NCBI GenBank assembly: GCA_027021615.1
Contig: JALUTY010000030.1
Span: forward strand, 1 to 53,165
Reading direction: 5' to 3'
Origin: a bacterium
GTDB lineage: Bacteria > Desulfobacterota > Deferrisomatia > Deferrisomatales > Deferrisomataceae
Length of the DNA stretch: 53,165 nt
This document shows, piece after piece, positions 88-34,776 of this stretch (the first letter of the stretch is position 1; the number at the start of each line of letters is the position of its first letter). The translations under genes and the position numbers were made by a program. A model generated the notes under the pieces. That model was given only the letters and a program-made list of their open reading frames with translations, did no database searches and was not told the DNA's origin.

Positions 88-160
88 GGATAAACAGGCG
101 CTATCGCTCCTTGCTCGGAGGGGCAAGGGGCCTGCCTCCAGCCGCGCGCAAAGCCGGGCA
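88..160. repeat. Partial copy of the MITE-like element
   Basis: This stretch resembles the ends of the two longer elements at 25334-25560 and 27625-27855. It begins TAAACAGGCGC, as the 27625 copy does, and continues with GGGCAAGGGGCCTGCCTCC, as the inverted far ends of both copies do. Only one end is present, so it looks like a solo terminus or decayed copy. It sits in the divergent intergenic space between the HAD gene and the CO-oxidation operon. Confidence 0.5.
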
Positions 161-165
161 TGAGA

Positions 166-6710: not shown

Positions 6711-8405
6711 ATGTCCAAGCGACTCGGCGAACTCCTGATCCGGGAAAATATCCTGACCCCCGCGGACCTGGAACGGGCCAGGGAAGACCAGCGCCGCAAC
6801 GGCGGTCGGTTGGGCGAGGCGCTGGTGCGCCTAGGGTTGGTGGACGAGCAGGATCTGGTGCGCACCCTCTCCAAGCAGTACGGGGTCCCCACGGTCGACC
6901 TGGCGAACTTCGAGATCGACCCCGAGGTCACCAAGCTGGTGCCCGAGGATCTGGTCCAAAAGTACCGGATCATTCCCATCAACCGGGTCGGCTCCACCCT
7001 GATCGTGGCCGTCGACGACCCCTCCAACATGTTTGCTTTGGACGACATCAAGTTCCTCACCGGCTACAACGTGGAGATGGTGCTGGCGGCGCCGTCGGCC
7101 ATCAAGGAGGCGATCGACCGGTACTACGACTCGTCGGCCACTCTTCTGGACGTGATGGGCAACTTCGACCTGGACGAGCTTGAGCTCGTCCAGGACGAAG
7201 AGGACGTGGACGTGGCCGACCTGGAGAGGGCGGTCGAGGACGCCCCCGTCGTCAAGCTGGTGAACCTGATCCTGTCCGACGCCATAAAGAAGGGCGCGAG
7301 CGACATCCACATCGAGCCCTACGAGAAGTCGTTCCGGGTGCGGTACCGTATCGACGGCGTGCTCTACGAGCAGATGCGCCCGCCCATGAAGCTCAAGAAC
7401 GCGATCACCAGCCGCGTCAAGATCATGGCCAACCTGGACATCGCCGAACGTCGGCTCCCCCAGGACGGCCGCATCAAGCTGAAGATCTCCAAGAACAAGG
7501 ACATGGACTTCCGGGTGTCGGTGCTTCCGACCCTGTTCGGCGAAAAGATCGTGATGCGGCTCTTGGACAAATCGAACCTCCAGCTCGACATGACCAAGCT
7601 GGGGTTCGAGGAGGGCGCCCTCAAGGACTTCAAAGAGGCGATTCACAAACCCTACGGCATGGTGCTGGTGACCGGCCCAACCGGGTCGGGAAAGACCACT
7701 ACCCTGTACTCGGCCCTCTCGGAGCTCAACACCCCCGAGACGAACATCTCCACGGCAGAGGATCCGGTGGAGTTCAACCTGCCGGGCATCAACCAGGTCC
7801 AGATCCACGATGAGATCGGCCTCAACTTCGCGGCCGCCCTGCGTAGCTTCCTGCGACAGGACCCCGACATTATCATGGTGGGGGAGATCCGGGACTTCGA
7901 GACCGCCGAGATCGCGATCAAGGCCGCCCTCACGGGGCACATGGTGCTCTCCACCCTGCACACCAATGATGCCCCGAGCACCGTGAACCGGCTCTTGAAC
8001 ATGGGCGTGGAGCCGTTCCTGGTGGCCTCGGCCACCAACCTGATCGTGGCCCAGCGGCTGGCTCGCCGGATCTGCCCCAACTGCAAGGAGGCCGTGGAGG
8101 TGCCGGCCCAGGCCTTGCTGGACATCGGAGTGCCTTCGGACCGGATCGGCGCGTTCACCTGTTACCGGGGTACCGGGTGCGCCAACTGCGCGGACACCGG
8201 GTTCAAGGGCCGGGTGGCCCTGTACGAGGTGATGGTGATCACCGACGGGATCAAGGAGCTCATCCTGAACGGGGCCAGCGCTCTGGAGCTCAAGCAGGAA
8301 GCGATACGCGGGGGTATGAAGACCCTGAGAATGAGCGGGATCACCAAACTCATGGAAGGCATGACCACCTTGGAAGAGGTGGTCCGGGTGACCGTGAAGG
8401 ACTGA
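6711..8405 (+). CDS. pilB: Type IV pilus extension ATPase PilB
   Basis: 564 residues. It powers pilus assembly from the inner face of the cytoplasmic membrane. The N-terminal MshEN/GspE domain (LGELLI...ILTPADLERA) spans about residues 1-150. The ATPase core has Walker A GPTGSGKTTT near 322, a Walker B region DPDIIMVGEIRD near 383 and the His box GHMVLSTLHTND near 410. A tetracysteine zinc site (CPNC near 454 and CANC near 490) is typical of PilB/GspE and absent from PilT. It starts the pilB-T-C-S-R cluster. Confidence 0.97.
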   Translation: MSKRLGELLIRENILTPADLERAREDQRRNGGRLGEALVRLGLVDEQDLVRTLSKQYGVPTVDLANFEIDPEVTKLVPEDLVQKYRIIPINRVGSTLIVAVDDPSNMFALDDIKFLTGYNVEMVLAAPSAIKEAIDRYYDSSATLLDVMGNFDLDELELVQDEEDVDVADLERAVEDAPVVKLVNLILSDAIKKGASDIHIEPYEKSFRVRYRIDGVLYEQMRPPMKLKNAITSRVKIMANLDIAERRLPQDGRIKLKISKNKDMDFRVSVLPTLFGEKIVMRLLDKSNLQLDMTKLGFEEGALKDFKEAIHKPYGMVLVTGPTGSGKTTTLYSALSELNTPETNISTAEDPVEFNLPGINQVQIHDEIGLNFAAALRSFLRQDPDIIMVGEIRDFETAEIAIKAALTGHMVLSTLHTNDAPSTVNRLLNMGVEPFLVASATNLIVAQRLARRICPNCKEAVEVPAQALLDIGVPSDRIGAFTCYRGTGCANCADTGFKGRVALYEVMVITDGIKELILNGASALELKQEAIRGGMKTLRMSGITKLMEGMTTLEEVVRVTVKD

Positions 8406-8424
8406 CGAGCTCGAGGACGACACC

Positions 8425-9549
8425 ATGATCAGCCTGCATCAGCTGCTAAAAACGATGATCGAGCGGGGGGCCTCGGACCTCCATGTCACAACCGGCTCCC
8501 CACCCCAGCTCCGGATCGACGGCCGCATGGTGCCCCTGGACGCCGCTCCCCTGAGCCCGGCCGACGCCAAGCGGCTGTGCTACTCGGTTCTGACCGAGGC
8601 GCAGAAGCACCGATTCGAGGAAGAGAACGAGCTGGACCTCTCGTTCGGGGTGAAGGATCTCTCTCGGTTCCGGGCCAACATCTTCATGCAGCGGGGATCG
8701 GTGGCCGGGGCGTTCCGGGCCATCCCGTTCAAGGTGTTCAGCTTCGAGGAGCTGGGGCTCCCTCCGGTGGTCCACGAGATCGCCTCGAAGCCCCGGGGCC
8801 TGGTGCTCGTGACCGGCCCTACGGGGTCCGGGAAGTCCACCACGTTGGCCGCGATCATCGACAAGATCAACTCCGAGCGCCACGAGCACATTGTCACGAT
8901 CGAGGACCCTATCGAGTACCTCCATCCCCACAAGAGCTGCGTGGTGAACCAGCGGGAGGTGAACTCCGACACCGAGAGCTTCCGCAAGGCCCTCAAGTAC
9001 ATCCTGCGGCAGGATCCGGACGTGGTGATGATCGGCGAGATGCGCGACCTCGAGACCATCGAGGCCGCCTTGACCGTGGCCGAGACCGGGCACCTGTGCT
9101 TCGCCACCTTGCATACGAACACGGCCGTGCAGACCATCAACCGGATCGTGGACGTGTTCCCACCCCATCAGCAGCCCCAGGTCCGGGCCCAGCTGTCGTT
9201 CGTGCTGGAGGGGATCCTGAGCCAGCAGCTCATCCCCCGCGCCAGCGGCCGGGGCCGAGCCCTGGCCGTGGAGATCATGGTCCCCAACGCAGCCATCCGG
9301 AACCTGATCCGGGAGGACAAGGTCCACCAGATCTACTCCCAGATGCAGATGGGCCAGGAGAAGTACGGTCAGCAGACCATGAACCAGTCCCTGTACCACC
9401 TGGTCACGAAGAAGATCATCCGGCTCGAGGACGCCATGATCCGCAGCCCCGACCCTGGGGAGCTGCGGCAGATGCTGGCCAAGGGCTCCCCCGACATGGT
9501 GGACGCTCGGCGGGCGACCCGGCCGGCCGCGGCCGGAACGAGGATGTAG
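8425..9549 (+). CDS. pilT: Twitching motility / pilus retraction ATPase PilT
   Basis: 374 residues, slightly longer than the usual 345-370. Hexameric ATPase that depolymerises the pilus. Walker A GPTGSGKSTT is near residue 131, Walker B DPDVVMIGEMRD near 195, and the retraction-specific AIRNLIRE box near 289. It lacks the PilB zinc site. It is separated from pilB by 19 bases. The C-terminal tail beyond the AIRNLIRE region is basic and Ala-rich and carries no motif I recognise. Confidence 0.97.
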   Translation: MISLHQLLKTMIERGASDLHVTTGSPPQLRIDGRMVPLDAAPLSPADAKRLCYSVLTEAQKHRFEEENELDLSFGVKDLSRFRANIFMQRGSVAGAFRAIPFKVFSFEELGLPPVVHEIASKPRGLVLVTGPTGSGKSTTLAAIIDKINSERHEHIVTIEDPIEYLHPHKSCVVNQREVNSDTESFRKALKYILRQDPDVVMIGEMRDLETIEAALTVAETGHLCFATLHTNTAVQTINRIVDVFPPHQQPQVRAQLSFVLEGILSQQLIPRASGRGRALAVEIMVPNAAIRNLIREDKVHQIYSQMQMGQEKYGQQTMNQSLYHLVTKKIIRLEDAMIRSPDPGELRQMLAKGSPDMVDARRATRPAAAGTRM

Positions 9550-9594
9550 ACTTCCGCCGCATCCTAACCCCTGGTCCTCAACAGCGAGGTACCC

Positions 9595-10809
9595 ATGCCG
9601 ATGTACAAATGGGAAGGGCGAGCGCGGGGAGGAAAGGTGCAAAAGGGCACCATGGAGGCACCCAATGAGGCCGTGGTCACGGCCCAGCTGCGTGCCCAAG
9701 GCATCACGCCCACCAAGGTCAAGAAAAGCTTGGGCCAGGTCGAGATCAAGATCCCTGGCCTGAAGCCCAAGGTGAAGACCAAGGACATCGTGGTGTTCAC
9801 TCGACAGTTTGCCACCATGATCGACGCCGGTCTCCCCCTCGTTCAGTGCCTTGAGATCTTGGGCGGCCAGCAGGAGAACCCCACGTTCAAGGAGATCATC
9901 CTTAAGGTCAAAGAGGACGTGGAGAGTGGAGCCACCTTTGCGGATGCCCTCTCCAAACACCCAAAGGTGTTCGACCGGCTTTACGTGAACCTGGTGAACG
10001 CCGGTGAGGTGGGTGGCATTCTGGACACCATTCTGAACCGGTTGGCCGGCTACATCGAAAAGGCCATGAACCTGCGAAAGAAGGTCAAGGGCGCCATGGT
10101 GTACCCGGCCACCGTGGTGTCGGTGGCGATCCTGGTGGTGGCGATCATCTTGATCTGGGTCATCCCGGTGTTCCAGCAGATGTTCGCCGGCATGGGCAAA
10201 AACCTGCCCGCGCCCACCCTCTTCGTGATCTCCCTGTCCGACTTCACCAAAAAATACTTCTTGTTCATCCTGGTCTGTCTGTTCTTGGTCTCCTTTATTT
10301 TCAAACGGCTCTATCAGACCGACAAGGGGCGGATGGCCTTCGACCGGATGTTTCTGCGGGTGCCGGTGTTCGGGGACCTCATCCGTAAGGTGGCCGTGGC
10401 CAAGTTCACCCGCACCCTGGGCACCCTGGTGAGCTCGGGCGTACCGATCCTCGAGGGCCTGGACGTGGTGGCTCGAACCGCCGGGAACGCCGTGATCGAG
10501 GAGGCCATCATGAAGACCCGCGAGTCCATCAGCGAGGGCCGAACCATCGCCGAGCCGCTCAAGGAGACTAAGGTGTTCCCGCCGATGGTGGTCCAGATGA
10601 TCGCGGTGGGCGAGGCCACGGGGGCCTTGGACCAGATGCTCTCCAAGATCGCCGACTTCTACGACACCGAGGTGGACGAGGCCGTGAGCGCGCTCACCAG
10701 CATGATCGAGCCGTTGCTCATGGTGTTCCTCGGCGGCACCATCGGCGGCCTGGTGGTGGCCATGTACCTTCCGGTCTTCCAGATGGCCGGCACGGTGAGC
10801 GGGGGCTAG
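9595..10809 (+). CDS. pilC: Type IV pilus inner-membrane platform protein PilC
   Basis: 404 residues. It has two GspF domains, each with the pattern FTRQFATMIDAGLPL (near residue 65) and FTRTLGTLVSSGVPIL (near 270), and hydrophobic segments near 170-190, 220-240 and 375-395. It anchors PilB and PilT to the membrane and guides pilin into the fibre. It follows pilT after 45 bases and precedes pilS after 23 bases, so it is part of the same operon. Confidence 0.97.
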   Translation: MPMYKWEGRARGGKVQKGTMEAPNEAVVTAQLRAQGITPTKVKKSLGQVEIKIPGLKPKVKTKDIVVFTRQFATMIDAGLPLVQCLEILGGQQENPTFKEIILKVKEDVESGATFADALSKHPKVFDRLYVNLVNAGEVGGILDTILNRLAGYIEKAMNLRKKVKGAMVYPATVVSVAILVVAIILIWVIPVFQQMFAGMGKNLPAPTLFVISLSDFTKKYFLFILVCLFLVSFIFKRLYQTDKGRMAFDRMFLRVPVFGDLIRKVAVAKFTRTLGTLVSSGVPILEGLDVVARTAGNAVIEEAIMKTRESISEGRTIAEPLKETKVFPPMVVQMIAVGEATGALDQMLSKIADFYDTEVDEAVSALTSMIEPLLMVFLGGTIGGLVVAMYLPVFQMAGTVSGG

Positions 10810-10832
10810 GCCGGTCGGCCAGGAGTGAACCC

Positions 10833-12413
10833 GTGTCCCCCCCGGGACCGAGGCGTTACCAGGGCTACCTGGCTGGCCGGTTCGCCGTGCTGGGAGTTCT
10901 GTTGGCGGTGGCTGCCGCGCTCCAGGCCCGCCAGGGGGAGGTCCTCCTCCCGTTCTCGTGGTTCTTCGGCATCACCGGGGTGGCCTTCGGGGTCACCCTT
11001 CTGTCGTTGGCACCGTTGCGCCTCGGGAAGGACCTGGAACCCTGGGCCCGGTTCCAACCGGCCTGGGACGTGGTCTATGCCACGGGCCTGGTGTTCCTTT
11101 CCGGGGGCGCGTTCTCCCCGTTCGTCACCCTCTACCCCCTGGCGATCGTGGGAGCGGCCCTACTGCTTCAACGGAAGGGCGCTCTCGCGGCAGCCACGGC
11201 GTCCGGGCTGGCCTACGGTCTGTTGGTCGACCTCCAGTACTACGGATGGCTCCGCCCCCTGAGCCCCTTCCCCCTGCCAGAGGTGGACACGGGAAACCTG
11301 CTGTTCCAGCTCGCGCTGGGGATCCTTGGTTTCTACGCGGTGGCGTTCCTGGCCGGGTACCTGGCCGAGGAGCTCCGGCGAACGGGGGAGCGTCTCGTGG
11401 TGGCCGAAGCCGAGGTGCTGGCCCTGGAGCACCTGAAGGACTCGATCCTCGAGAGCCTCGGTTCCGGGCTGGCCGCCGTAAACCCATCGGGGCGGGTTCT
11501 GTTCCACAACCGATCCGCCCAGAACCTGCTGAGCCGGGCAGGCGTCCGTTTGGAACCGGGCGCAGCCCTGAACGGGGTGTTCGACCTCGGAGGAGGGGCC
11601 CGCAACGAGGTCACCCTGGTGGACGGAAGGGTCCTCGGGTACTCGGTCTCGCCCCTGACCGACCGGGCCGGGCGCAGGATCGGAAACATCTTGATCTTTC
11701 AGGACCTGACGCGGGTGAAACGGATGGAAGAGGCCCTTCGGAGAGCCGACCGGCTGGCGGCGGTGGGCCGGCTGGCCGCCGGCCTGGCCCATGAGATTCG
11801 CAACCCTTTGGGCAGCCTGGCCGGATCGGTGGAGGTGCTCCGCCAAACCCTGTCTCCACAGGGGGAGGATGCGGCCCTGTTCGACATCGTGCTCCGGGAG
11901 ACCCAGCGGCTCAATCGGCTGGTGACCAACTTCCTCCACTACGCCCGACCTGGCCGCTCCGCGCCCCAGGAACTCCCTCTCCGGGACCTGGTTACAGAGG
12001 TGGGGTTCTTTTTCTCGCAAGGCGAGGGGCGCGAGGGGTTCCACCTGCAGAACCGGGTTCCCGAGGGGCTCGTGGTGCGGGCCGACCGGGGGCAGATGGA
12101 GCAGCTGCTGCTGAATCTGTTCCGCAACAGCATGGAGGCCGCTCCCGCAGGGGTAACCGTGACCGTGGAGGGGGCGGCGTCGGCGGAAGGCCCGTGGCTG
12201 CGGGTGTCGGACAATGGGCCGGGCATGTGCCCGGAGACCGCGGCCCGGGCGTTCGAACCGTTCCACTCAGGCAAACCCGGGGGAACCGGTCTGGGGCTGG
12301 CCACGGTGCACCGGATCGCCGAGAACCACGGTGCCACGGTCGAGCTGGATACCGGGCCGGGGGAGGGGGTGCGGCTGACCTTCCGATTTCCCGGAGCCGA
12401 GGAGGCGAAATGA
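10833..12413 (+). CDS. pilS: Sensor histidine kinase PilS
   Basis: 526 residues. The N-terminal third has about six hydrophobic segments, followed by a PAS-like region (about 205-300). The HisKA domain carries the phosphoacceptor in LAAGLAHEIRNPLGSL near residue 319, and the HATPase domain has the N box (LLLNLFRNSMEAA) and the SDNGPGM and GGTGLGLA glycine boxes. The start is GTG at 10833 behind AGGAG. The gene overlaps pilR by four bases. PilS is known to sense membrane pilin level and phosphorylate PilR. That target is inferred here from the sigma-54 promoter ahead of pilA. Confidence 0.93.
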   Translation: MSPPGPRRYQGYLAGRFAVLGVLLAVAAALQARQGEVLLPFSWFFGITGVAFGVTLLSLAPLRLGKDLEPWARFQPAWDVVYATGLVFLSGGAFSPFVTLYPLAIVGAALLLQRKGALAAATASGLAYGLLVDLQYYGWLRPLSPFPLPEVDTGNLLFQLALGILGFYAVAFLAGYLAEELRRTGERLVVAEAEVLALEHLKDSILESLGSGLAAVNPSGRVLFHNRSAQNLLSRAGVRLEPGAALNGVFDLGGGARNEVTLVDGRVLGYSVSPLTDRAGRRIGNILIFQDLTRVKRMEEALRRADRLAAVGRLAAGLAHEIRNPLGSLAGSVEVLRQTLSPQGEDAALFDIVLRETQRLNRLVTNFLHYARPGRSAPQELPLRDLVTEVGFFFSQGEGREGFHLQNRVPEGLVVRADRGQMEQLLLNLFRNSMEAAPAGVTVTVEGAASAEGPWLRVSDNGPGMCPETAARAFEPFHSGKPGGTGLGLATVHRIAENHGATVELDTGPGEGVRLTFRFPGAEEAK

Positions 12414-19562: not shown

Positions 19563-19587
19563 ACATTTTTCTGAGGAAAAATCCCGG

Positions 19588-19603
19588 TGGCACAGGGGTT
19601 GCT
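19588..19603 (+). promoter_or_regulatory. Sigma-54 promoter of pilA
   Basis: TGGCAC at 19588-19593, five bases, then TTGCT at 19599-19603 match the -24/-12 consensus with its GG and GC dinucleotides at correct spacing. Transcription should start near 19614. PilR, encoded at 12410-13783, is the obvious activator. Confidence 0.9.
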
Positions 19604-19802
19604 ATTAAAGCGGGCGAACCCGGAGGACGATGAGTAGCCCGAAGGCTTTCTGGCGAACACGAACCCACGGATGGGGGGAAGGAGGTAGGAACCCGAGGAT
19701 GACGCCACCCGAGACGTAGACCCAACCCGAAGGGAGCTTGTGCTCCTGACGACCGCAGACCCGCACGATCGAGACCCAACCCACAACGCAGGAGGACAGA
19801 CC
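19604..19802 (+). promoter_or_regulatory. Long pilA leader, possible leader peptide
   Basis: About 190 bases separate the predicted transcription start from pilA. A 29-codon reading frame begins with ATG at 19630 behind GGAGG and ends at 19719. The motif AGACCCAACCC occurs twice (19718-19728 and 19772-19782). The pilA ribosome binding site AGGAGG lies just before 19803. I looked for the conserved GEMM (cyclic dinucleotide) riboswitch core known ahead of Geobacter pilA and did not find it. Confidence 0.4.
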
Positions 19803-20237
19803 ATGATCCGCAGAATCCGCACCAAGATGAAGGACCGCAAGGGCTTCACCCTGATCGAGCTCATGATCGTCGTGGCCATCCTGGGCATCCTGGCCGCCGT
19901 GGCGATCCCGCAGTACCTGAACTACATCGCACGATCGAAGGAGAACACGGCCAAAGCGAACTACGACACCGCCGTGGCCCTGGTGAAGAGCGAGTTCGCC
20001 AAGGCTGCTGCCGGTGAAGACGCGGACACCGCTGTCGTGGACACCCTGAACGCCGGAGACAAGAAGAATCCCTTCAACGCCAGCGAAGACGCGTTCGTGA
20101 GCGGCAGCACCGTCCACAAGGGTCAGGTGGCCATCAGCAACACCAACCTCAAGGCGCTGTACAGCGGCTCGACCAACGCCGTCGTATACGGGAACTGGAA
20201 CGGGACCAGCACCAACACCACCATCGTGCCCGAGTAA
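19803..20237 (+). CDS. pilA: Major type IV pilin PilA
   Basis: 144 residues with a class III prepilin signal: a short basic leader ending KDRKG, then [20 protein letters not shown]. PilD-type cleavage before Phe would leave a mature pilin of about 130 residues with Glu5. Two in-frame ATGs (19803 and 19827) could both start translation; the first has the stronger AGGAGG. Mature aromatics are at about 1, 24, 27, 40 and 51, close to the spacing of Geobacter conductive pilins, but here a full C-terminal head is fused rather than split off. There is no Cys pair for the usual C-terminal disulfide. A strong terminator follows. Confidence 0.95.
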
Positions 20238-20246
20238 GCGGTGCCA

Positions 20247-20287
20247 ATGGGCCGGGCGGCCCCGTGGCCGCCCGGCCCATTTTTCTT
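20247..20287 (+). terminator. Rho-independent terminator after pilA
   Basis: A 15-bp perfect stem (20247-20261 with 20266-20280) and a CCGT loop are followed by TTTTTCTTT. It should isolate abundant pilA mRNA from the downstream pilin genes. Confidence 0.95.
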
Positions 20288-20307
20288 TCGGGTGCAGGGT
20301 ACACGCC

Positions 20308-20727
20308 ATGGACCGGCGCAAAGGCTTCACTCTGATCGAGTTGATGATCGTGGTGGCGATCCTGGGCATCCTCTCAGCGATTGCCATCCCCCAGTACCTT
20401 AGATATATCTCAAGAAGCAAAGACAACGTCATAAAGAACAATTTCTTGACCGCCGTTGGGTTGATTCGCAACGAGATCAGCAAACGAAACGCAGGAGAAC
20501 TAAACTATCTCGACACTCCAGATGAGTTCGCAAATACTTTGAACAGCGGAGGGAAAAAAAGCGTCTATGACGACAGCTCTCCAGCGTTTGCTACCAGCGG
20601 CAGCGCTCCCGGCACCGTGGTAATTACGAAGGACGCAACGGCGACACCTCCTACATATCAGGTCACTGCATACGACAAAAACGGCTCCCCAATCTCAGGC
20701 AACACGATCACCATCGTTTTGGAGTGA
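20308..20727 (+). CDS. Second type IV pilin (PilA paralog)
   Basis: 139 residues beginning MDRRKG then [20 protein letters not shown], a class III prepilin signal. The organisation parallels PilA: the same IPQYL-YI-RSK helix, a variable head, and an ending NTITIVLE against NTTIVPE in PilA. That suggests duplication and divergence. Codon use is visibly more AT-rich than in PilA (many ATA, AAA, AGA codons in 20400-20530), so the copy may have come from elsewhere. Four bases separate it from the next pilin. It sits behind the pilA terminator and may be a minor or alternative pilin. Confidence 0.9.
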
Positions 20728-20731
20728 CAAG

Positions 20732-21127
20732 ATGGACAGGAAGGGGTTCACGCTAGTAGAGCTCATGATCGTAGTGGCTATCTTGGGGATACTAGCCGCC
20801 GTGGCGGTGCCCATGTACAGGAATTACATCAGCACATCTAAGAGGTCAGAGGCGAAAGCCAACCTGGAGACCATACGCCTCTTAGAGGAGCAGTATTACG
20901 CAGACCACAAAACGTACCTCGCAGGGGCTGACACCCAAGCCCTCATCGACAACCTTCCGGGGTTCGAACCAGGCGACCCGGACGATCTCTACTACACATA
21001 TAGAGTGACGGCCGGCAGCACCGGTTCCATCTCCACGTCGTTCAAGGCGACCGCGAGCCCGAAGGCGAGCTCTCCCTCGGGAGCGCTCACGATCGACGAC
21101 AAGAACCAAAAAACAGGCCCGTGGTGA
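20732..21127 (+). CDS. PilE-like minor type IV pilin
   Basis: 131 residues with leader MDRKG and then [20 protein letters not shown]. The helix continues [20 protein letters not shown] and the head has [11 protein letters not shown] and LYYTYRV, patterns typical of PilE-type minor pilins. It is probably a pilus-tip or priming subunit. It begins 4 bases after the preceding pilin gene and overlaps the start of the next reading frame. The C-terminus ends KTGPW without the Cys pair common in minor pilins. Confidence 0.88.
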
Positions 21128-23367
21128 AGCACGCACGGCACGTCGGCCGACCGCGATCCGGCTTCCTCAAGGCTTCCCCCTTCTTTTGCACCTCCTCCAC
21201 GGCTAACGAGTCACCCGTGCGTAGGTTTCTGGCCGACCGCATTCCCTTGGCACCGCTCGCTCCCCGCTCCCAACCGTGGGCCGCGGCGCTGCTAATTGGG
21301 ATGTACGCCGCACTGTTCCTGGCTCTCCCCATCCACGCGGGCGACACCGATCTGTGGTACCACCTGAACAGCGGGCGATACTTTGTAGAGAACGGTGCAC
21401 TCCCGGATCACAGTTTCTTTAGCTTCGTGAGCCCCCCCAGGCCGTGGGTAGACTATTTTTGGTTTTTCCAATTAGTGGTCTACGGAGTTTACAGCGCATG
21501 GGGCTACGCGGGTCTCGTAGTCCTCAGGGCTACTGTATTCACAGCAGCCCTTGCCACGGCCGCGCTCCTCTACCCTCGAGACGAGACCGGGCGCCCACAA
21601 CCAGGGCTGTGCATCGGCATCACCTTGCTCGCTTTCTTCCTTTTCTCCCGGTACACGCTCGTGCGGCCCCATACCCTCTCGTACCTGCTCGTGCTGGTGT
21701 TTCTCTGGGTGCTGGAGCGACGTCCCAGATGGAGGCCCTTGCTTCCAGCTCTCGCGGTGTTTTGGGTGAACGTGCACGGCATCACCTACCCCGTGCTGTA
21801 CGCGATTGCGGGCGCGTATCTCGCCGAGGAGATGTGGCAGCGGCTACGAGCCGGAAAAAAAGCACCGGGCGTCCAGGCGGCAACCCTGATGCTCTGCTTT
21901 CTCGCGCCACTCGCAACCCCTCACGGCAGCGCACTGCTGAGACTACCTTTTGTGCCGACAGAATTCGCCCGCGAATACATCAACGAGCTTCAACCGATTC
22001 CCCTGGGGCATTGGTTCGACTTTGGCGTAGCAGGGATGGTTCCCGATCAGGGGGCAGCGTTCGTGCTGCTGGCCCTCGCAACATTGGCCGGCCTTTACCA
22101 ATCCTTTCGCTCCAAAAAAGTCAGGATTTCTCATCTCCTACTGCTCCTAGCGGGCGCGGTCCTGCTCGTTCGAGGCGCCCGATTTCGGTACGAGTTCGTT
22201 CTGCTCTCACTCCCCTTCGCTCTTTCCGAGGGTGGGCTCCCAGCATTGGGACGGTTCGTGCGTCGATCCGGTGCACGACTCGTGGCGGTTGCTTTGTTCC
22301 TGATGCTCGCAAACGGGCTCTTCGTACACGCGGCGTTGGTGAACCGGGGAGCATGGCCGTTTGATCCCAAGAACTTGCCCGTGGGCGTGTGCAGATTTCT
22401 CCAGCAGGAGGCGCGCGGTGGTACGCTGTTGCAGCACCCGAACCTGGGCGGCTATTACCAGTGGGCTTTGGGGAGTCGGTTTCGCATCTACATGGACATG
22501 GAGGTCCCTTTTCTGTTCACCGACGAAGACATGTTCCTCGCTACACATATGATTGAAGATCCTAAGATCTTCGGCCTACTCGTGTCTCAGTACTCTCCTC
22601 GGTTCGTTGCCATTCCTTTAGGAGCAAAAGCCTTTCAGGAGAAAGTTCTCCCGAAGTTCAGACAATATAAACCGATTTTTTTTGACAACTCCTCTGTACT
22701 GTTTGTAGACGCCAACCAAGAGCCCGGCCTGGCCAGAAAGTTTGAGCTGCGAGAGGTCCGCCCCTTCGATCTCGCCGGACGTAAAATGGATCAGCTCTTG
22801 GAAGGAGCGGATCAAGCAGGGTTCCGAAACGAAATCCAGCGCGTTCTCGAGATCCATCCCGAGAACGGTCTGGCCAACCAGATCATGGCGATGTGGATGC
22901 TGCGCCAAAAAGAGTACGGGAAAGCCTTGCGTTACGCCGATCAAGTGGCGGCTTGGTTCCCGGCGTCTCCACGGGGGCACAAGCTTCGGGGAGATGCTCT
23001 GCGGGGCCTGAAACGCTTTGACGAAGCTCTCGAGGCGTACCGGCAGGCGACCCGCCACTCAGATGGGCCCGTAGCCGAGGCCGCGTGGCGCCAGATGGGG
23101 CTCATCTATGCCGAGACCGGGGACGCAAAGCAAGCCTACCGTTGTTTCTCCCGGTCCATTTTCCCTTACCGACCTACCACAAATCACAAGGACCTCTACT
23201 TTCTCGGCACGGCAGCCTTTCTGGCAGACCGCCTCCCGGAGGCGTACACCCTCTTGCGCCTTGCCCGCTACAAGCTTCCACCCGGAGATTCCGAGTGGCG
23301 TAGCCGCGTGGAACGCCAGCTCCGGCTGGTCGAGGCCCAGACGCGGAAACAGGAGAGGTTTCCGTGA
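21121..23367 (+). CDS. Polytopic membrane protein with C-terminal TPR repeats
   Basis: Up to 748 residues. About ten hydrophobic segments occupy residues 55-410, with [14 protein letters not shown] and WVDYFWFFQ in the first large loop, and tetratricopeptide-like helices follow from about 580 ([28 protein letters not shown]). The architecture resembles glycosyltransferase-C-like proteins found with pilin glycosylation genes, but I see no clear catalytic motif. The start is uncertain: GTG at 21121 or 21124 overlaps the pilin stop, and GTG at 21217 begins VRRFLADRI just before the first membrane segment. The stop overlaps the methyltransferase start. The DNA is more AT-rich than the chromosomal background here. 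Confidence 0.75.
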
Positions 23368-24080
23368 ACGAGATCATCTCGCGATACTACGAAGGCCGGG
23401 ACCTCGAAGCGATGTCGTGTGCAGAAAACTATCACCGCTGGATCTTCGAAGGGTTCCGCCCACATATGGGACGCCGAATCCTGGAGGTGGGAGCCGGGTG
23501 CGGCAACTTTACGAGTCGGCTTCTGGAGACCGACCCTGAGTGGCTCGTGGCGGTCGAGCCTTCTTCGAACCTTTGCAGGCTGCTGGTGGAACGATACGGG
23601 AACCTTTCCCATGTGCGGGTGGTAGGCGGGTACCTTCCCGATGGCCTCCGACAATGCCCTGCGCCCCCGGACACCATGGTGTACGTGAACGTGCTAGAGC
23701 ACGTGGAGGACGACCGGGGAGAGCTCGCGACCGCCTTCGCAAGCCTAACGCCTGGGGGCTGCCTCTGCATCCTGGTCCCTGCGCTCCCCTTTCTCTACGG
23801 AAACTTCGATCAAGCCGTGGGGCATTTGCGCCGATACAGGAAAAAGGATCTGGAACGCAAGGTCTCCGAGGCCGGGTTCGAGGTCCTCGAATCCAGGTAT
23901 TTCGACCTCGCCGGTGTGCTTCCGTGGTGGTTCGCATATCGCGTGCTCAGACGGACCGCCTTGAACCCCGCTCAGGTCGCCATTTATGACCGGTTTTGCG
24001 TTCCCGTGACTCGGGTGATCGAAAGGATGTGTCCCCCCCCCGTAGGGAAGAACGTGTTCCTCGTGGCGCGCCGACACTAG
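23364..24080 (+). CDS. Class I SAM-dependent methyltransferase
   Basis: 238 residues. Motif I for S-adenosylmethionine reads [12 protein letters not shown] near residue 39, with VAVEPS near 62 as the acidic end of strand 2 and [13 protein letters not shown] near 107 as motif IV. This is a small-molecule or sugar-lipid type methyltransferase (UbiG/Methyltransf_11-like). The start is GTG at 23364, overlapping the upstream stop. With glycosyltransferases on both sides, it may methylate a glycan or lipid-linked sugar. Substrate is unknown. Confidence 0.88.
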
Positions 24081-24100
24081 CGCTTACCCGGAGGACGAAC

Positions 24101-25330
24101 ATGGAGATGGAGAAGGATGGAGCCATCCCTCTGCTGACCGTTGTGGTGCCCTGCTACAACGAAGAGACGACCCTCGAGAACTGTATCTCGCGCGTCCTGG
24201 AGCTTGAGGAGCGAGGGATTGCTCTGGAGATCATCATCGTTGACGATGCCTCCGTGGACCGAAGCGCTCTGGTGGCCGAGGCCATAGCGCGGCGGTGCCC
24301 CCAGGTCCGGGTCCTACGACACGAGAGGAACCGCGGCAAGGGAGCGGCCTTGCGCACAGGTTTTAAGGAGGCCAAGGGGCGGTTCGTGGCCGTTCAGGAC
24401 GCAGACCTGGAGTACAACCCGCTGGAGCTCGCGGACCTGCTGGAACCGCTTCTATCCGACCGAGCAGATGTAGTGTATGGATCCCGTTTCTTGGGAGGGC
24501 GGCCTCATCGGGTGCTCTACTTCTGGCACTCTATAGGGAACGCGTTCCTAACCCTCGTCTCGAACATGTTCACAGATCTCAACTTGACCGACATGGAGAC
24601 CTGCTACAAGGTTTTCCGCCGAGATGTTATTCAGAGCCTTGAGATCGAGGAGGATCGATTCGGATTCGAGCCGGAGGTCACAGCCAAGATCGCACACGCC
24701 GGGTGGAGAGTGTACGAGATGGGCATCTCGTACCACGGCCGAACCTATTCCGAGGGGAAGAAAATCGGTTGGAAGGATGGGGTGCGTGCCCTCTACTGCA
24801 TTTTCAGGTACAACGCACGGCACCTTCCTCTTCCGATGCAGTTCTTGGTCTATCTGTTTATCGGTGGCGTGGCCGCCGCTTCCAACATCGCGATTTTCGC
24901 CGGGTTGTCGGCCGCGGGTCTTCCGATAACCCCGGCGATCGTCATCGCGTTCTTCTTGGCCGCGGCATTGAACTATCTGCTGTGCATCATCATCTTGTTC
25001 CGACACAAGGCACGTTGGAGCTCCGCAACGGAAGTCCTGGTGTACACGGCCGTCGTTTTGGGCGGCGCCGCGTTCGACTGGGCCGCCACGAGGGGTTTCA
25101 TGGCTTCGGGACTGCCGGCGGTGGCCTCCAAGGCGGCTGCCGCGGTCGCCGGCGTTCTCTACAACTTCCTGGCGCGCCGGTACCTCGTGTTCCCGGAAAA
25201 ACGGCCGGCGCCGATCCCCTCCGGGCAGAGCCCTGGGCAAGAGGAGGCAGGGGCGGCCCCGCTGCGCTTTTCCGACCGGCAAGCCGATCTTCCTACCGCG
25301 GCAGAGGGCGGATCCAGCAACCACTATTGA
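24101..25330 (+). CDS. GT2 glycosyltransferase fused to a GtrA-like membrane domain
   Basis: 409 residues. The N-terminal GT-A domain (about 1-235) is of the polyprenyl-phosphate mannose/glucose synthase type, with [26 protein letters not shown] and the metal-binding [10 protein letters not shown]. The C-terminal third has four membrane helices of the GtrA type ([19 protein letters not shown] onward to [10 protein letters not shown]). Such fusions make a lipid-linked monosaccharide and may help flip it for protein or surface glycosylation. The ATG at 24101 follows GGAGG and begins the homologous region. The last gene of the forward pilin block, it ends four bases before the MITE-like element. 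Confidence 0.9.
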
Positions 25331-25333
25331 CCC

Positions 25334-25560
25334 GGCCACGAAATAGGCGCTGCCGTCCCCTGATCGGGGGACCTACCGGAGGGCCGAGGGCGACCCCTTC
25401 GCTCGCCACTGTCAAGGCCGGCGGAGTTTGTCACATTTTCACCGAAATAACTGGTTGTTCCGTTTGTGATCTGGGGTCTGGAGGCGGGTCCGGCGCCCGG
25501 CCGGAGGCAGATTCTTTGCCCTTGCCCCGCCCCCCGAGGAAGCGCGCCGATTTTGTCGCC
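25334..25560. mobile_element. MITE-like element, copy 1
   Basis: A 227-bp non-coding element. The left end GGCCACGAAATAGGCGCTGC and the inverted right end GGCGACAAAATCGGCGCGCT match as terminal inverted repeats. Internal blocks shared with the 27625 copy are CTGATCGGGGG, CCCCTTCGCTCGCC and GGAGGCAG. There is no transposase gene. I could not see a clear target duplication. Confidence 0.6.
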
Positions 25561-25649
25561 GGGTTCATGGCACCGCGTGCTCGTCCGTTGACACGCACTC
25601 CGGACTGATCCGTGCCCCCATCCCGAAAAAAGCCTGTCTGGCCGCCGGG

Positions 25650-27596
25650 TCAATCCCGGTCCCCAGCTGCCTCCAGGCTCTGCCCGCCGCCACATTCTGC
25701 TTTCGTGTGGAGCCAGCGAAGGTTTGCCTGGGCGGTCGAGTGCCCCGGTGCCGTTGCGAGGGCTCGTAACAAATAGTTCTCCGCCTCCCTGCATCGACCC
25801 TGGCGAGCCACGGCCAACCCAATATTTGCCAAGACATCTGGGTCCGTACGGAATTTGCGCAAGGCCTCCTTCAACACCTCCTCGGCCTGGGCGTTCTGCC
25901 CCGTAAGGAGGAGCGCGGCCCCCAGATCACGAAGAACCGTGGCTCGATCGGCCGGATCTCCCTGTAGGGACCGAGTTAGAGCCGCAACCGCCTGCTCCCC
26001 GTACCCTTGCTGGAGGCGAATCCTGCCGAGCTCTGCGAGCAGTGCCACGTCCTCAGTGCCCTCCTCCAACGCCCTGAGGCACGCTTGGGCAGCCTCGTCG
26101 AGCTGGCCAACTGTGCTGAGGAGGCGACTCTTGAGCAGCAGAGCTTCCTTGTTGTCCGGGCGGCACTTCAGCAAAGCGTCCACCTCATCAAGCGCCTCTT
26201 GGAACCGTCCCAGCCCGGCCCAAGCGAGCGCGAGATTGTTGCGGGCTGCGAGGTAGCACGGGAAACGATCAAGCGCCTTTTCAAACAACCCAACCGCTTC
26301 TCGCAAACGTCCTTCTTGCGCCATCTCGATACCAAGGCCGTTTAGGGCCTGGACGTTTCTCTCAGGCTCCAGCCTCAATGCGTACCGGAAAAGAGTTTGC
26401 CCATCCCTCCAGTGACCGGTTTGCCCCCAGCTGACCGCCGCAAACACCCCCAAGGTCGCTGTCGCGCAAAATCTGCGCGCCCTCCGAGACAGAAGCCTCC
26501 CCCTCAACAAACCGACGGCGGCCAGCAGCAAGCCCGGCAACGCAAGATACTGGAACCGGTCTGCGGCAAACGGCCAGACGCCTCCCCTCTCCAAACCCAG
26601 GCCGGGGATGAGAAGAAAGAGATACCACAAGATCCCGAGCGTAACCGACGGGTTTGTCCGGCGGCACCGCCACGCGAGCACGAGCAGCGTCGTCCCCAAG
26701 ATCGCACTGGCCCACCCAGCCAAGGACAAATTTTCTGGCGGTGGGTACCAAAAACTGAGGCGTGTCGGCACAACGAATCTCTCAAAGAACGCCCCGATGG
26801 CGGCAACCGCTTCCACCGACCTCCGCGCCCAGGGGACCGCCGCGCCAGAGTAACGGATTCCGGCACTTTCCATGCCTGCAAGAGCAACATACGAGAGAAG
26901 TGAGCCTACCAGGAGAAGGGGCACCTTCTCCGCCAGCAACCGAACAGACCCTTCCCTGTCCGTGCGCCGCAGAGGCCACGCGTCCAGAGCCAGGAGCACC
27001 GCGGGCAAGGGGCCCGCTGCCGGCTTGGACGCCATCGCTAAGACGAAAAGCCCCATGACGCCGAGATACCGGGGTATCGTGGGGCGAGGAGCATACACGC
27101 GCAGATAGGCGAGCACAGAAAGAAACGCAAACGTGCCGCAAAGAAGAGTCTTACGTTCTGCAACCCAGGCCATGCTTTCCACCTGGAGCGGATGCAGCAA
27201 GAACAACGCCGCAATCACCCATGAAAGCCCCCTTTCATCCGTTATACAACGAACAATCCAGAACACCAGAAAAGAATTGACAGCGTGTACAAAAAGATTA
27301 ATAAGGTGCGCAGCGGCCGGGCTGGCTCCGAACACGTCCACCTCTACCATAAACGAGAGCCATGTGATCGGATGCCAGTACATGTACCTCGTGTTTATAA
27401 GAGCCCAGCGCAATCCCTTCCACGTGAACCCCAGGGGCACCCAGGTGTTGTCTGTCAGGTAGGCGTTGTCGTCCATTCCCAGGATAGAGAACCCCCCCAC
27501 TCGACCGTAGACCACAACCGCCAGTCCGAGGAGGCCAACGAACACAGCCATGTCCGTGTTCAGCCAGGACGATGACCTAGGGGTGCGTATGCTCAT
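25650..27596 (-). CDS. TMTC-like membrane protein with C-terminal TPR repeats (putative protein O-glycosyltransferase)
   Basis: 648 residues. The N-terminal 400 residues are membrane-embedded and match bacterial TMTC/PMT-like proteins: DDNAYLTDNTWVPLGFTW near residue 42, YWHPITWLSFMVEVDVFG near 73 and HPLQVESMAWVAERKTLL near 135. The acidic DD pair in the first periplasmic loop is where GT-C enzymes keep the catalytic Asp. TPR repeats follow from about 425. It could transfer a lipid-linked sugar to an exported protein such as pilin. No good ribosome binding site precedes 27596; the Met at 27551 is an alternative. The gene is flanked by direct copies of the MITE-like element. Confidence 0.8.
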   Translation of the reverse strand: MSIRTPRSSSWLNTDMAVFVGLLGLAVVVYGRVGGFSILGMDDNAYLTDNTWVPLGFTWKGLRWALINTRYMYWHPITWLSFMVEVDVFGASPAAAHLINLFVHAVNSFLVFWIVRCITDERGLSWVIAALFLLHPLQVESMAWVAERKTLLCGTFAFLSVLAYLRVYAPRPTIPRYLGVMGLFVLAMASKPAAGPLPAVLLALDAWPLRRTDREGSVRLLAEKVPLLLVGSLLSYVALAGMESAGIRYSGAAVPWARRSVEAVAAIGAFFERFVVPTRLSFWYPPPENLSLAGWASAILGTTLLVLAWRCRRTNPSVTLGILWYLFLLIPGLGLERGGVWPFAADRFQYLALPGLLLAAVGLLRGRLLSRRARRFCATATLGVFAAVSWGQTGHWRDGQTLFRYALRLEPERNVQALNGLGIEMAQEGRLREAVGLFEKALDRFPCYLAARNNLALAWAGLGRFQEALDEVDALLKCRPDNKEALLLKSRLLSTVGQLDEAAQACLRALEEGTEDVALLAELGRIRLQQGYGEQAVAALTRSLQGDPADRATVLRDLGAALLLTGQNAQAEEVLKEALRKFRTDPDVLANIGLAVARQGRCREAENYLLRALATAPGHSTAQANLRWLHTKAECGGGQSLEAAGDRD

Positions 27597-27624
27597 CAGA
27601 TCCGATCCATCTCATAAGCCAGTG

Positions 27625-27855
27625 GGTAAACAGGCGCGATTCCCTCCCTGATCGGGGGTAAAGGGCCTGTTGGAGAGCCGGGCGCAGCCCCTTCGCTCGC
27701 CGCGCAGCGCCTCGGATACTGGAACCGCGAAATGGCACCCATTCCACAGGGTCGTCATGAACCCCCCCTGCCGTGCCTGCGCGGCGGATCTCAACGCCCG
27801 GGCGGAGGCAGGTCCCTTGTCCCGCCCTCCGAGGTAACGCCCCTATTTTGTCGCC
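27625..27855. mobile_element. MITE-like element, copy 2
   Basis: About 231 bp in the same orientation as copy 1. It starts GGTAAACAGGCGCGATTCCC and its inverted right end reads GGCGACAAAATAGGGGCGTT. It shares CTGATCGGGGG, CCCCTTCGCTCGCC and GGAGGCAGGTCCCTTG blocks with the family. The right end overlaps the stop and last codons of the pilin-accessory gene at 27843. Confidence 0.6.
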
Positions 27856-28628
27856 GGTTTGATCGATGATGGAGGCCCCTCTGGGAGGAGGGCAAACCGC
27901 AGGGCTCCCTCGGTATCCAGAGCGAAGGTGAGGACGTCGTAGCTGCAGACCAAGGGCACGAGTAGCACACGGCCCGGCTCCAACCCCTTCTCCCGCACCC
28001 ATCGTTCCGCCTCCTCCGCCCATTTAGGCGCCCTCTCGCGCCAAGCGTCCAGAGTCAGAGGATACTCCCGGATGATACCGATGTTTTGGTCCGTCAGCCG
28101 CTCCATCAGGTCGCCCCGCAGGAACACCGGCCGGCCGGTTTGGAGAGCGGTCTTCCGGATGCGCTGGCGCTCGGCCTCGTCGGGGGGCATGCGGATCACG
28201 GCGTAGACCGGGGTCGTGTCCGCGTCCGCCAGGATCTTCTTGGCCTCGTCGCCCGCCAGGGGCAGGAGGTCCGCGCTCGCCGAGTAGAAGGCGCCGTCGG
28301 CGAACACCACCAGGGCCGTGCGCTGGGCCCCCACGGTCCATAGCCCCCACCCGAAGGCCACGGCCTGCAGGGCGCCGATCACGGAGTAGTCGAACACGAG
28401 GGCTTTTCGACTCTTGCGGGGGTTGTACACGACCAGGGTGAGCACAGGGCCCAGCACCAGATCCACCCCCACGATGAGCCGCAAGCCCTGCCAGCCCCCG
28501 TCGGCCACGAAGTAGGGCAGGGGAAACCACCGGCTCACGAACAGCCACAGCAGCAGGGCCATGGTGACCGCGCTCACCCCCAGATGGATGCAGAAGGCTC
28601 GTCCCTTCGGCCCGACGTTCAGCCCCAT
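27843..28628 (-). CDS. TfpX/TfpZ-family type IV pilin accessory protein
   Basis: 261 residues. The opening GRAFCIHLGVSAVTMALLLW and later YFVADGGWQGL, GVDLVLGPVLTLVVYNPRKS and LVFDYSVIGALQAVAFGWG match the four-helix core of TfpX/TfpZ proteins, which modulate pilin surface level or modification in Pseudomonas and related bacteria. The C-terminal half is soluble. The start at 28628 follows GGAGGGAG; a longer frame exists but lacks homology. The last codons and stop fall within the end of the MITE-like element, so the C-terminus may be altered. It supports a pilin-linked role for this block. Confidence 0.82.
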   Translation of the reverse strand: MGLNVGPKGRAFCIHLGVSAVTMALLLWLFVSRWFPLPYFVADGGWQGLRLIVGVDLVLGPVLTLVVYNPRKSRKALVFDYSVIGALQAVAFGWGLWTVGAQRTALVVFADGAFYSASADLLPLAGDEAKKILADADTTPVYAVIRMPPDEAERQRIRKTALQTGRPVFLRGDLMERLTDQNIGIIREYPLTLDAWRERAPKWAEEAERWVREKGLEPGRVLLVPLVCSYDVLTFALDTEGALRFALLPEGPPSSIKPATK

Positions 28629-29051
28629 CGCACTCCCTCCGTCGGCGGATGCTGTGAACCATTTTCTTATCGGCTCAAGCACGTGAGGGATAACCCAGAG
28701 GGGGTCCGGGGAAAGCGGCTCCGATTGCGGCCGGGACGGTTCGATGGTAGGAGGGAGGCTCCTGAAACGACCAGTAGGAGAAAGCGAGGTGCGCGAGACG
28801 GTTCGGACGGTGGTCTGGGGAGTTGAGGCGGACAATGTCGGGGTCGGCTGCAGCCGGAGCGCATCGGAGAGCCGCCGGTCCCCTGGACTGAGCTCGATCC
28901 TCCCTGGGGCCCAGACCCCGATGGGGCTGGCCTAAAGGAGCACAAAGCCATGGTGCGGAATCCCCCCTTCTAGCGCCCGTACCAGGCCGGGCCGATCGGG
29001 TTCCAGCACTTCTGCTGCCGGTGTGAGGCTGCGCCGGATGACCCGCCAGAC
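28629..29051. other. Intergenic region between J-domain and pilin-accessory genes
   Basis: 423 bases. On the minus strand the J-domain reading frame continues in phase for 39 codons after its TAG at 29052, reading SLTPAAEVLEPDRPGLVRAL and ending at 28932. This could be a lost C-terminal extension. The remainder (28629-28930) holds nothing I recognise. Confidence 0.4.
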
Positions 29052-34656: not shown

Positions 34657-34776
34657 CGGTCGTCGGTCTACGGTCAACGGTCGCCGGTCTGGGGCCTTCG
34701 CCCCGCTAGGCGGCTCTCGCCAACCCGGCGGCGGGGGGCCTGTTGGAGCGCCGGGCGTGGCTCCTATGGTCGCTGC
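34657..34776. repeat. Heptamer run and MITE fragment upstream of rph
   Basis: From 34657 the units run CGGTCGT, CGGTCTA, CGGTCAA, CGGTCGC, CGGTCTG with exact 7-base spacing. From 34736, GGCCTGTTGGAGCGCCGGGC matches the interior of the MITE-like element near 27660 (GGCCTGTTGGAGAGCCGGGC). The whole 34634-34881 gap otherwise shows no gene. Confidence 0.65.

Follow-up and report, generated by a model that had tools for sequence, protein, structure and literature searches.

An IS630-type MITE family in a genus of the Deferrisomataceae, with two old copies that probably settled around a resident TMTC-like gene

Does a gene that lies between two mobile repeats owe its position to them? The question is raised by a 53,165-nt contig from a bacterium of the Deferrisomataceae (contig C30 of the 4.25-Mb draft genome G000; the whole contig is called the window hereafter), in which two MITE copies stand in the same orientation on both sides of a single open reading frame (25650-27596, minus strand) encoding a TMTC-like protein. 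The first-pass annotation had suggested that the gene was moved by such elements or can be lost by recombination between them. The analysis described here argues instead that the MITEs are old and decayed and that they probably inserted around a resident gene without having been its vehicle.

Copies and remnants of the repeat in the window

The right copy (27615-27863, plus strand, 249 bp) aligns with positions 4-270 of the 271-bp consensus of the family, designated family A, at 78% identity (E 7e-59). The left copy (25325-25568, plus strand, 244 bp) has A-type ends and a non-consensus middle, and it matches the consensus at its two ends only, with 72.5% identity at 25325-25407 (E 5e-10) and 83% at 25493-25568 (E 1e-17); the stretch between them (25408-25492, plus strand) is a variant core that is common to copies on contigs C72 and C118. 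Local alignment to the consensus gave scores of 304 for the right copy and 158 for the left one, against a maximum of 49 among 200 dinucleotide shuffles of each. The consensus matches and these controls bear out the annotated pair of related elements in the same orientation, while their size, given as about 230 bp, had to be corrected to the lengths above, the middle of the left copy turned out to be a different core, and a third end was added, an orphan A-type right terminal repeat at 25632-25654 (plus strand). When the whole window was scanned for the terminal repeat at up to 6 mismatches, four places only were found (25326, 25546, 25632, and 27841), and 200 shuffled patterns used as a control gave no match at up to 5 mismatches. 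TA is no longer present at both ends of either copy. Three stop codons lie inside element ends: that of a GT2 glycosyltransferase gene (25328-25330) in the left terminal repeat, that of the TMTC-like gene (25650-25652) in the orphan repeat, and that of a TfpX/TfpZ-like gene (27843-27845) in the right MITE. Insertion at the ends of genes, or close to them, would explain this most simply. A search against Rfam recognized no structured RNA family at the gathering threshold in the three loci submitted.

Two further fragments of the element had been annotated elsewhere in the window. The one at its left end holds, and it extends over 88-165 (plus strand) as a deletion/inversion derivative of family A, in which consensus positions 12-61 (96% identity) are followed by an inverted piece of positions 185-233. 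The other, at 34736-34776 (plus strand), gave no match at E 1e-3 when the window was searched with the consensus; visual comparison suggests a likeness to the variant core of the copies L020 and L025, and it is listed here as a possible variant-core fragment.

The MITE family, its IS630 partner, and its exchangeable ends

The family A consensus was written from copies fetched by place and has imperfect terminal repeats of about 26 bp reading TATTAACCCGGCG...AGGCGC. Several searches merged together placed it at no fewer than 88 distinct sites in G000, where the consensus search scored 40 of its 347 candidates and all copy counts are therefore lower bounds. Terminal-repeat patterns at up to 3 mismatches were found 44 times for the right end and 31 times for the left end in the same genome, and the reversed-pattern control gave 0. 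Strong matches were obtained in four of the 59 genomes searched, namely G000, G001, and G002, which belong to the same genus, and G003 of the same family; three of the others had one match each of 29-39 bases, and 52 had none. Among 25 distinct full-length copies, TA flanks both ends in 13, the left end in 17, and the right end in 16. Insertions at the same place in G000 and G002 were also found (L014/L054 and L035/L110). The terminal repeats shared throughout the family agree with the annotation of the window elements as MITE-like with common boundaries. Family A has several of the features by which bacterial MITEs are recognized, being short, sharing terminal inverted repeats, occurring in many dispersed copies, and having an autonomous partner with the same ends, and it is an IS630-type MITE family, that is, a new family of a known kind. 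Literature searches returned no description of it, which is no proof of absence.

The partner was found in the sister species. In the terminal-repeat scan, G002 showed paired ends 1.1 kb apart that enclose a 345-aa transposase of the IS630 family (NF033545, 246.7 bits against a cut-off of 100; DDE_3), and this IS is present in that genome in three intact copies plus a split one. Its ends are 86-93% identical to those of the family A consensus over 26-29 bp. The autonomous transposase with matching ends that the first-pass annotation had proposed to look for thus exists in the sister species, but the search did not find it in the genome to which the window belongs: the transposase gave no match at E 0.001 in the draft of G000 (97.8% complete), nor in G001 (81%). 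This transposase would recognize the shared 26-bp ends, move MITE copies in trans, and insert them at TA. G002 also has an IS630 of a second type, with different ends that by eye are like those of another MITE, C. Comparison of a site filled with a C-type MITE in G002 (L048, 1771-2036) with the empty site in G000 (L116, 652-657) showed that exactly one TA is duplicated, which represents recent movement of the sister MITE family. The direct evidence for insertion at TA comes from family C and not from family A itself. As a separate observation, an exact 20-nt MITE end without the core occurs in one gammaproteobacterial, one Sedimenticola, one Thiotrichales, and a second deltaproteobacterial MAG (L096, L099, L101, and L102); these are perhaps the ends of related IS630 elements.

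The closest known parallel that we considered is RUP of Streptococcus pneumoniae with its partner IS630-Spn1, described in PMC2229807 as a short non-coding repeat of about 100 copies with a TA target and IS630-like ends. Family A differs from RUP as characterized there in length (271 bp versus 107) and sequence, in having a partner IS that the searches located in a sister species but not in the window's genome, and in the occurrence of its core under different types of ends. The Correia/NEMIS elements of Neisseria, treated in the same article, are likewise MITEs with terminal repeats of about 24 bp ending in TA and with variants of internal size, but at about 107 and 155 bp they are set apart from family A by length. 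With family A, an IS630-linked MITE family is added for this genus and its partner IS is identified in a sister genome.

The core is found with more than one kind of end. We counted 56 distinct copies of the core (consensus positions 45-233) from 58 loci of G000 plus the window, 14 loci of G002, and five of G001, and scored the ends within 60 bp of the core; in a control with 2000 random 60-mers, five matched an end of any type. A-type ends stand on both sides in 29 copies, B-type ends (ATACCRAGTTGCRTTCAAA) in four, and one of each in two, while 14 copies have one recognized end and seven have none; cores with A-type, B-type, and mixed ends are represented by L041 and L123 (G000, contigs C4 and C96), L045, L130, and L131. 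The core is thus independent of any single type of end. B-type ends number 85 in G000 and 105 in G002, and no transposase was recognized by eye in the two longest ORFs of each of eight G002 stretches inspected for an autonomous IS with such ends. The mosaic may have originated by nested insertion, recombination, or end capture. We tentatively raise the possibility that the genus harbors a modular MITE superfamily, in which a core of about 190 bp has been combined with two or more dissimilar sets of ends (A, for which G002 has a matching IS630, and B) and with mixed A/B ends, and in which the core, and not the ends, would be the lasting unit that spreads by changing its transposase. No description of a MITE core under different ends came up in literature searches, and this silence is no proof of absence; the observation offers a handle on how MITEs switch transposase partners.

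A TMTC-like protein in a probable pilin-glycosylation locus

The gene between the two copies encodes a TMTC-like protein, with a predicted GT-C-type membrane domain and C-terminal TPRs. In six aligned sequences (the protein itself and five homologs), the loop that follows the first helix contains an invariant Asp-Asp pair (DD, residues 42-43), and TMTCs have been described with a DD in this loop (PMC7801869). No Pfam family, DUF1736 included, was matched by the membrane part at E values up to 10. The membrane part was folded alone because a fold search with the model of the whole chain returned TPR proteins. The resulting model (mean pLDDT 73.8, six sequences) retrieved ArnT first (E 0.005) and then AglB, PglB/STT3, PMT, and DPY19, and, judged by their titles, nearly all of the 22 best-scoring PDB entries are GT-C enzymes or complexes containing one; none of them reaches E 0.001, so that support for the fold is moderate. 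The TMTC O-mannosyltransferases, as presented in PMC7801869, share the GT-C membrane domain, the DD in the first loop, and the C-terminal TPRs, and the window protein differs from them in that its membrane part has no Pfam match, DUF1736 included, and its activity as a glycosyltransferase is a prediction. The annotation of the gene as TMTC-like agrees with the predicted GT-C-type membrane part, the invariant DD, and the TPRs. In two genomes of the same order, G006 and G011, many TMTC-like homologs occur per genome, several of them in runs (e.g. G006:C1:53350-69939).

Upstream of the left MITE, on the plus strand, lie genes for two type IV pilin-like proteins (19740-20237 and 20308-20727), a pilin-like protein with a ComP_DUS match (20732-21127), a 748-aa protein with C-terminal TPRs (21121-23367), a methyltransferase (23364-24080) that has no counterpart in the stretch of G002 compared, and the GT2 glycosyltransferase with a GtrA/DPMS membrane domain (23996-25330). 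Beyond the right MITE is the gene for the TfpX/TfpZ-like type IV pilin accessory protein (27843-28835, minus strand), whose start is uncertain, homology beginning at about residue 68; against NF041437 the TfpX/TfpZ-like proteins scored 110 (window gene) and 120 bits, below the curated cut-off of 200. The pilin-like genes upstream and the TfpX/Z-like gene downstream make pilin glycosylation the likely context, and the block is a probable variable pilin-glycosylation locus in which pilin would be the target. Pilin-accessory cassettes of Pseudomonas aeruginosa are reported to contain glycosyltransferases and TfpX/Y/Z (PMC11841053).

The gene had also been described as more AT-rich than its background. 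It has a GC content of 61% against 68% for the window, but this does not single it out because the whole block (19.6-27.6 kb) is at 60%. Block GC is lower in G002 too, at 64% versus 69-71%.

Residence of the gene and rival readings

In G002, homologs of the TfpX/Z-like, TMTC-like, and GT2 genes lie at 3426307-3430623 in the same order and on the same strands as in the window. A blast search with the family A consensus found nothing in the 20 kb around that locus at E 0.01, and when three stretches of the two G002 gaps were aligned to the consensus, 94, 140, and 42 of 200 shuffles reached the observed score. The comparison with G002 covered about 7.9-47.3 kb of the window, which is collinear and mostly 88-97% identical in its DNA sequence. 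Between about 19.6 and 27.9 kb (window positions 19587-27900), identity falls to 70-76% and the TMTC-like gene has no DNA match at all; identity is 74% in one more short piece, at 28.8 kb. The right MITE sits where this divergent block gives way to the part of the TfpX/Z-like gene that is 88% identical. Protein identity within the block is 48% for the TMTC-like protein, 48% for the 748-aa TPR protein, 74% for the GT2, and 77-86% for the three pilin-like proteins, compared with 69% to 98% outside it. In G001, an STT3/PglB-like gene adjoins the TfpX/Z-like gene in place of the TMTC-like one, and a further reading frame upstream is methyltransferase-like by eye.

That the outer ends of both copies carried the TMTC-like gene here as the cargo of a composite transposon is suggested by the arrangement, a same-orientation pair around one gene such as has been reported for resistance genes (PMC4439573), and by the different gene found beside the TfpX/Z-like gene in G001. 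It is nevertheless very improbable. Mobilization of the gene by the MITEs fails because G002 has the same gene order without them; the cargo of a composite transposon would be expected to be missing from the site in relatives that lack the MITEs, and in G002 it stands in the same place and on the same strand. The copies also differ in core and are 72-83% identical to the consensus, and the variability extends to two further genes, those for the 748-aa protein and the methyltransferase, at which the search detected no MITE. The conserved order in G002 was also the result that the first-pass annotation had named as one that would speak against movement of the gene. A deletion hot spot, where recombination between the copies would remove the gene in some strains, fits their direct orientation and their spacing of 2.3 kb, but it is hardly to be expected: the two copies share only short, diverged blocks (28-50 nt at 77-84%) and differ in their middles, which makes easy recombination, and with it the loss of the gene that had been envisaged, unlikely. 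No single hybrid element was seen, G002 keeps the gene, and G001 has other genes there. Close spacing is not peculiar to this pair, since neighboring family A copies within 2.5 kb number 10 in G000 against 4.4 expected by random placement, seven of them in the same orientation; such pairs are about twofold commoner than chance, and the window pair is one of the ten.

A more serious rival, though still an unlikely one, is that homologous recombination with DNA of another lineage replaced the block of about 8 kb (19.6-27.9 kb) together with its MITEs, with the MITEs as passengers or the right one as a mark of the crossover edge. The drop in DNA identity to 70-76% or no match with its right edge beside the right MITE, the lower protein identities inside the block (48-86% versus 69-98%), and MITE copies that look older than the overall identity of G000 and G002 suggests are all in its favor. 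No MITE lies at the left edge, however, and no donor was found, and the lower GC of the block in G002 as well means that the locus may simply be a fast-evolving one. Such an import would in any case not make the MITEs the vehicle. The divergence of the window copies from the consensus exceeds that between G000 and G002 for most of the window stretch compared, and the copies may accordingly be older than the separation of the two species; if they are, their absence from G002 could reflect replacement of the entire block together with its MITEs in one of the lineages.

Under the preferred reading, in which the MITEs inserted around a resident gene, they would have entered on either side of the TMTC-like gene, in the intergenic gaps where the GT2 gene and the TfpX/Z-like gene have their 3′ ends, and the block would vary between species for another reason, most likely the fast diversification of surface-glycosylation genes. 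The MITE-flanked cargo units described in or cited by PMC4439573 (Tn125-like regions and the integron mobilization unit, respectively) resemble the window in having a gene between two MITEs, but here the copies are old and unlike each other, and a relative that lacks them has the gene at the same position. That two mobile repeats flank a gene does not show that it moved, and a tempting inference is corrected. As for the locus, it resembles a pilin-glycosylation block that varies between species, with a TMTC-like enzyme in one and an STT3-like one in another. An additional stretch of about 3.3 kb, including an AAA_14/DUF4143 protein, was observed beside the TfpX/Z-like gene in G002 (L103, about 8065-11378).
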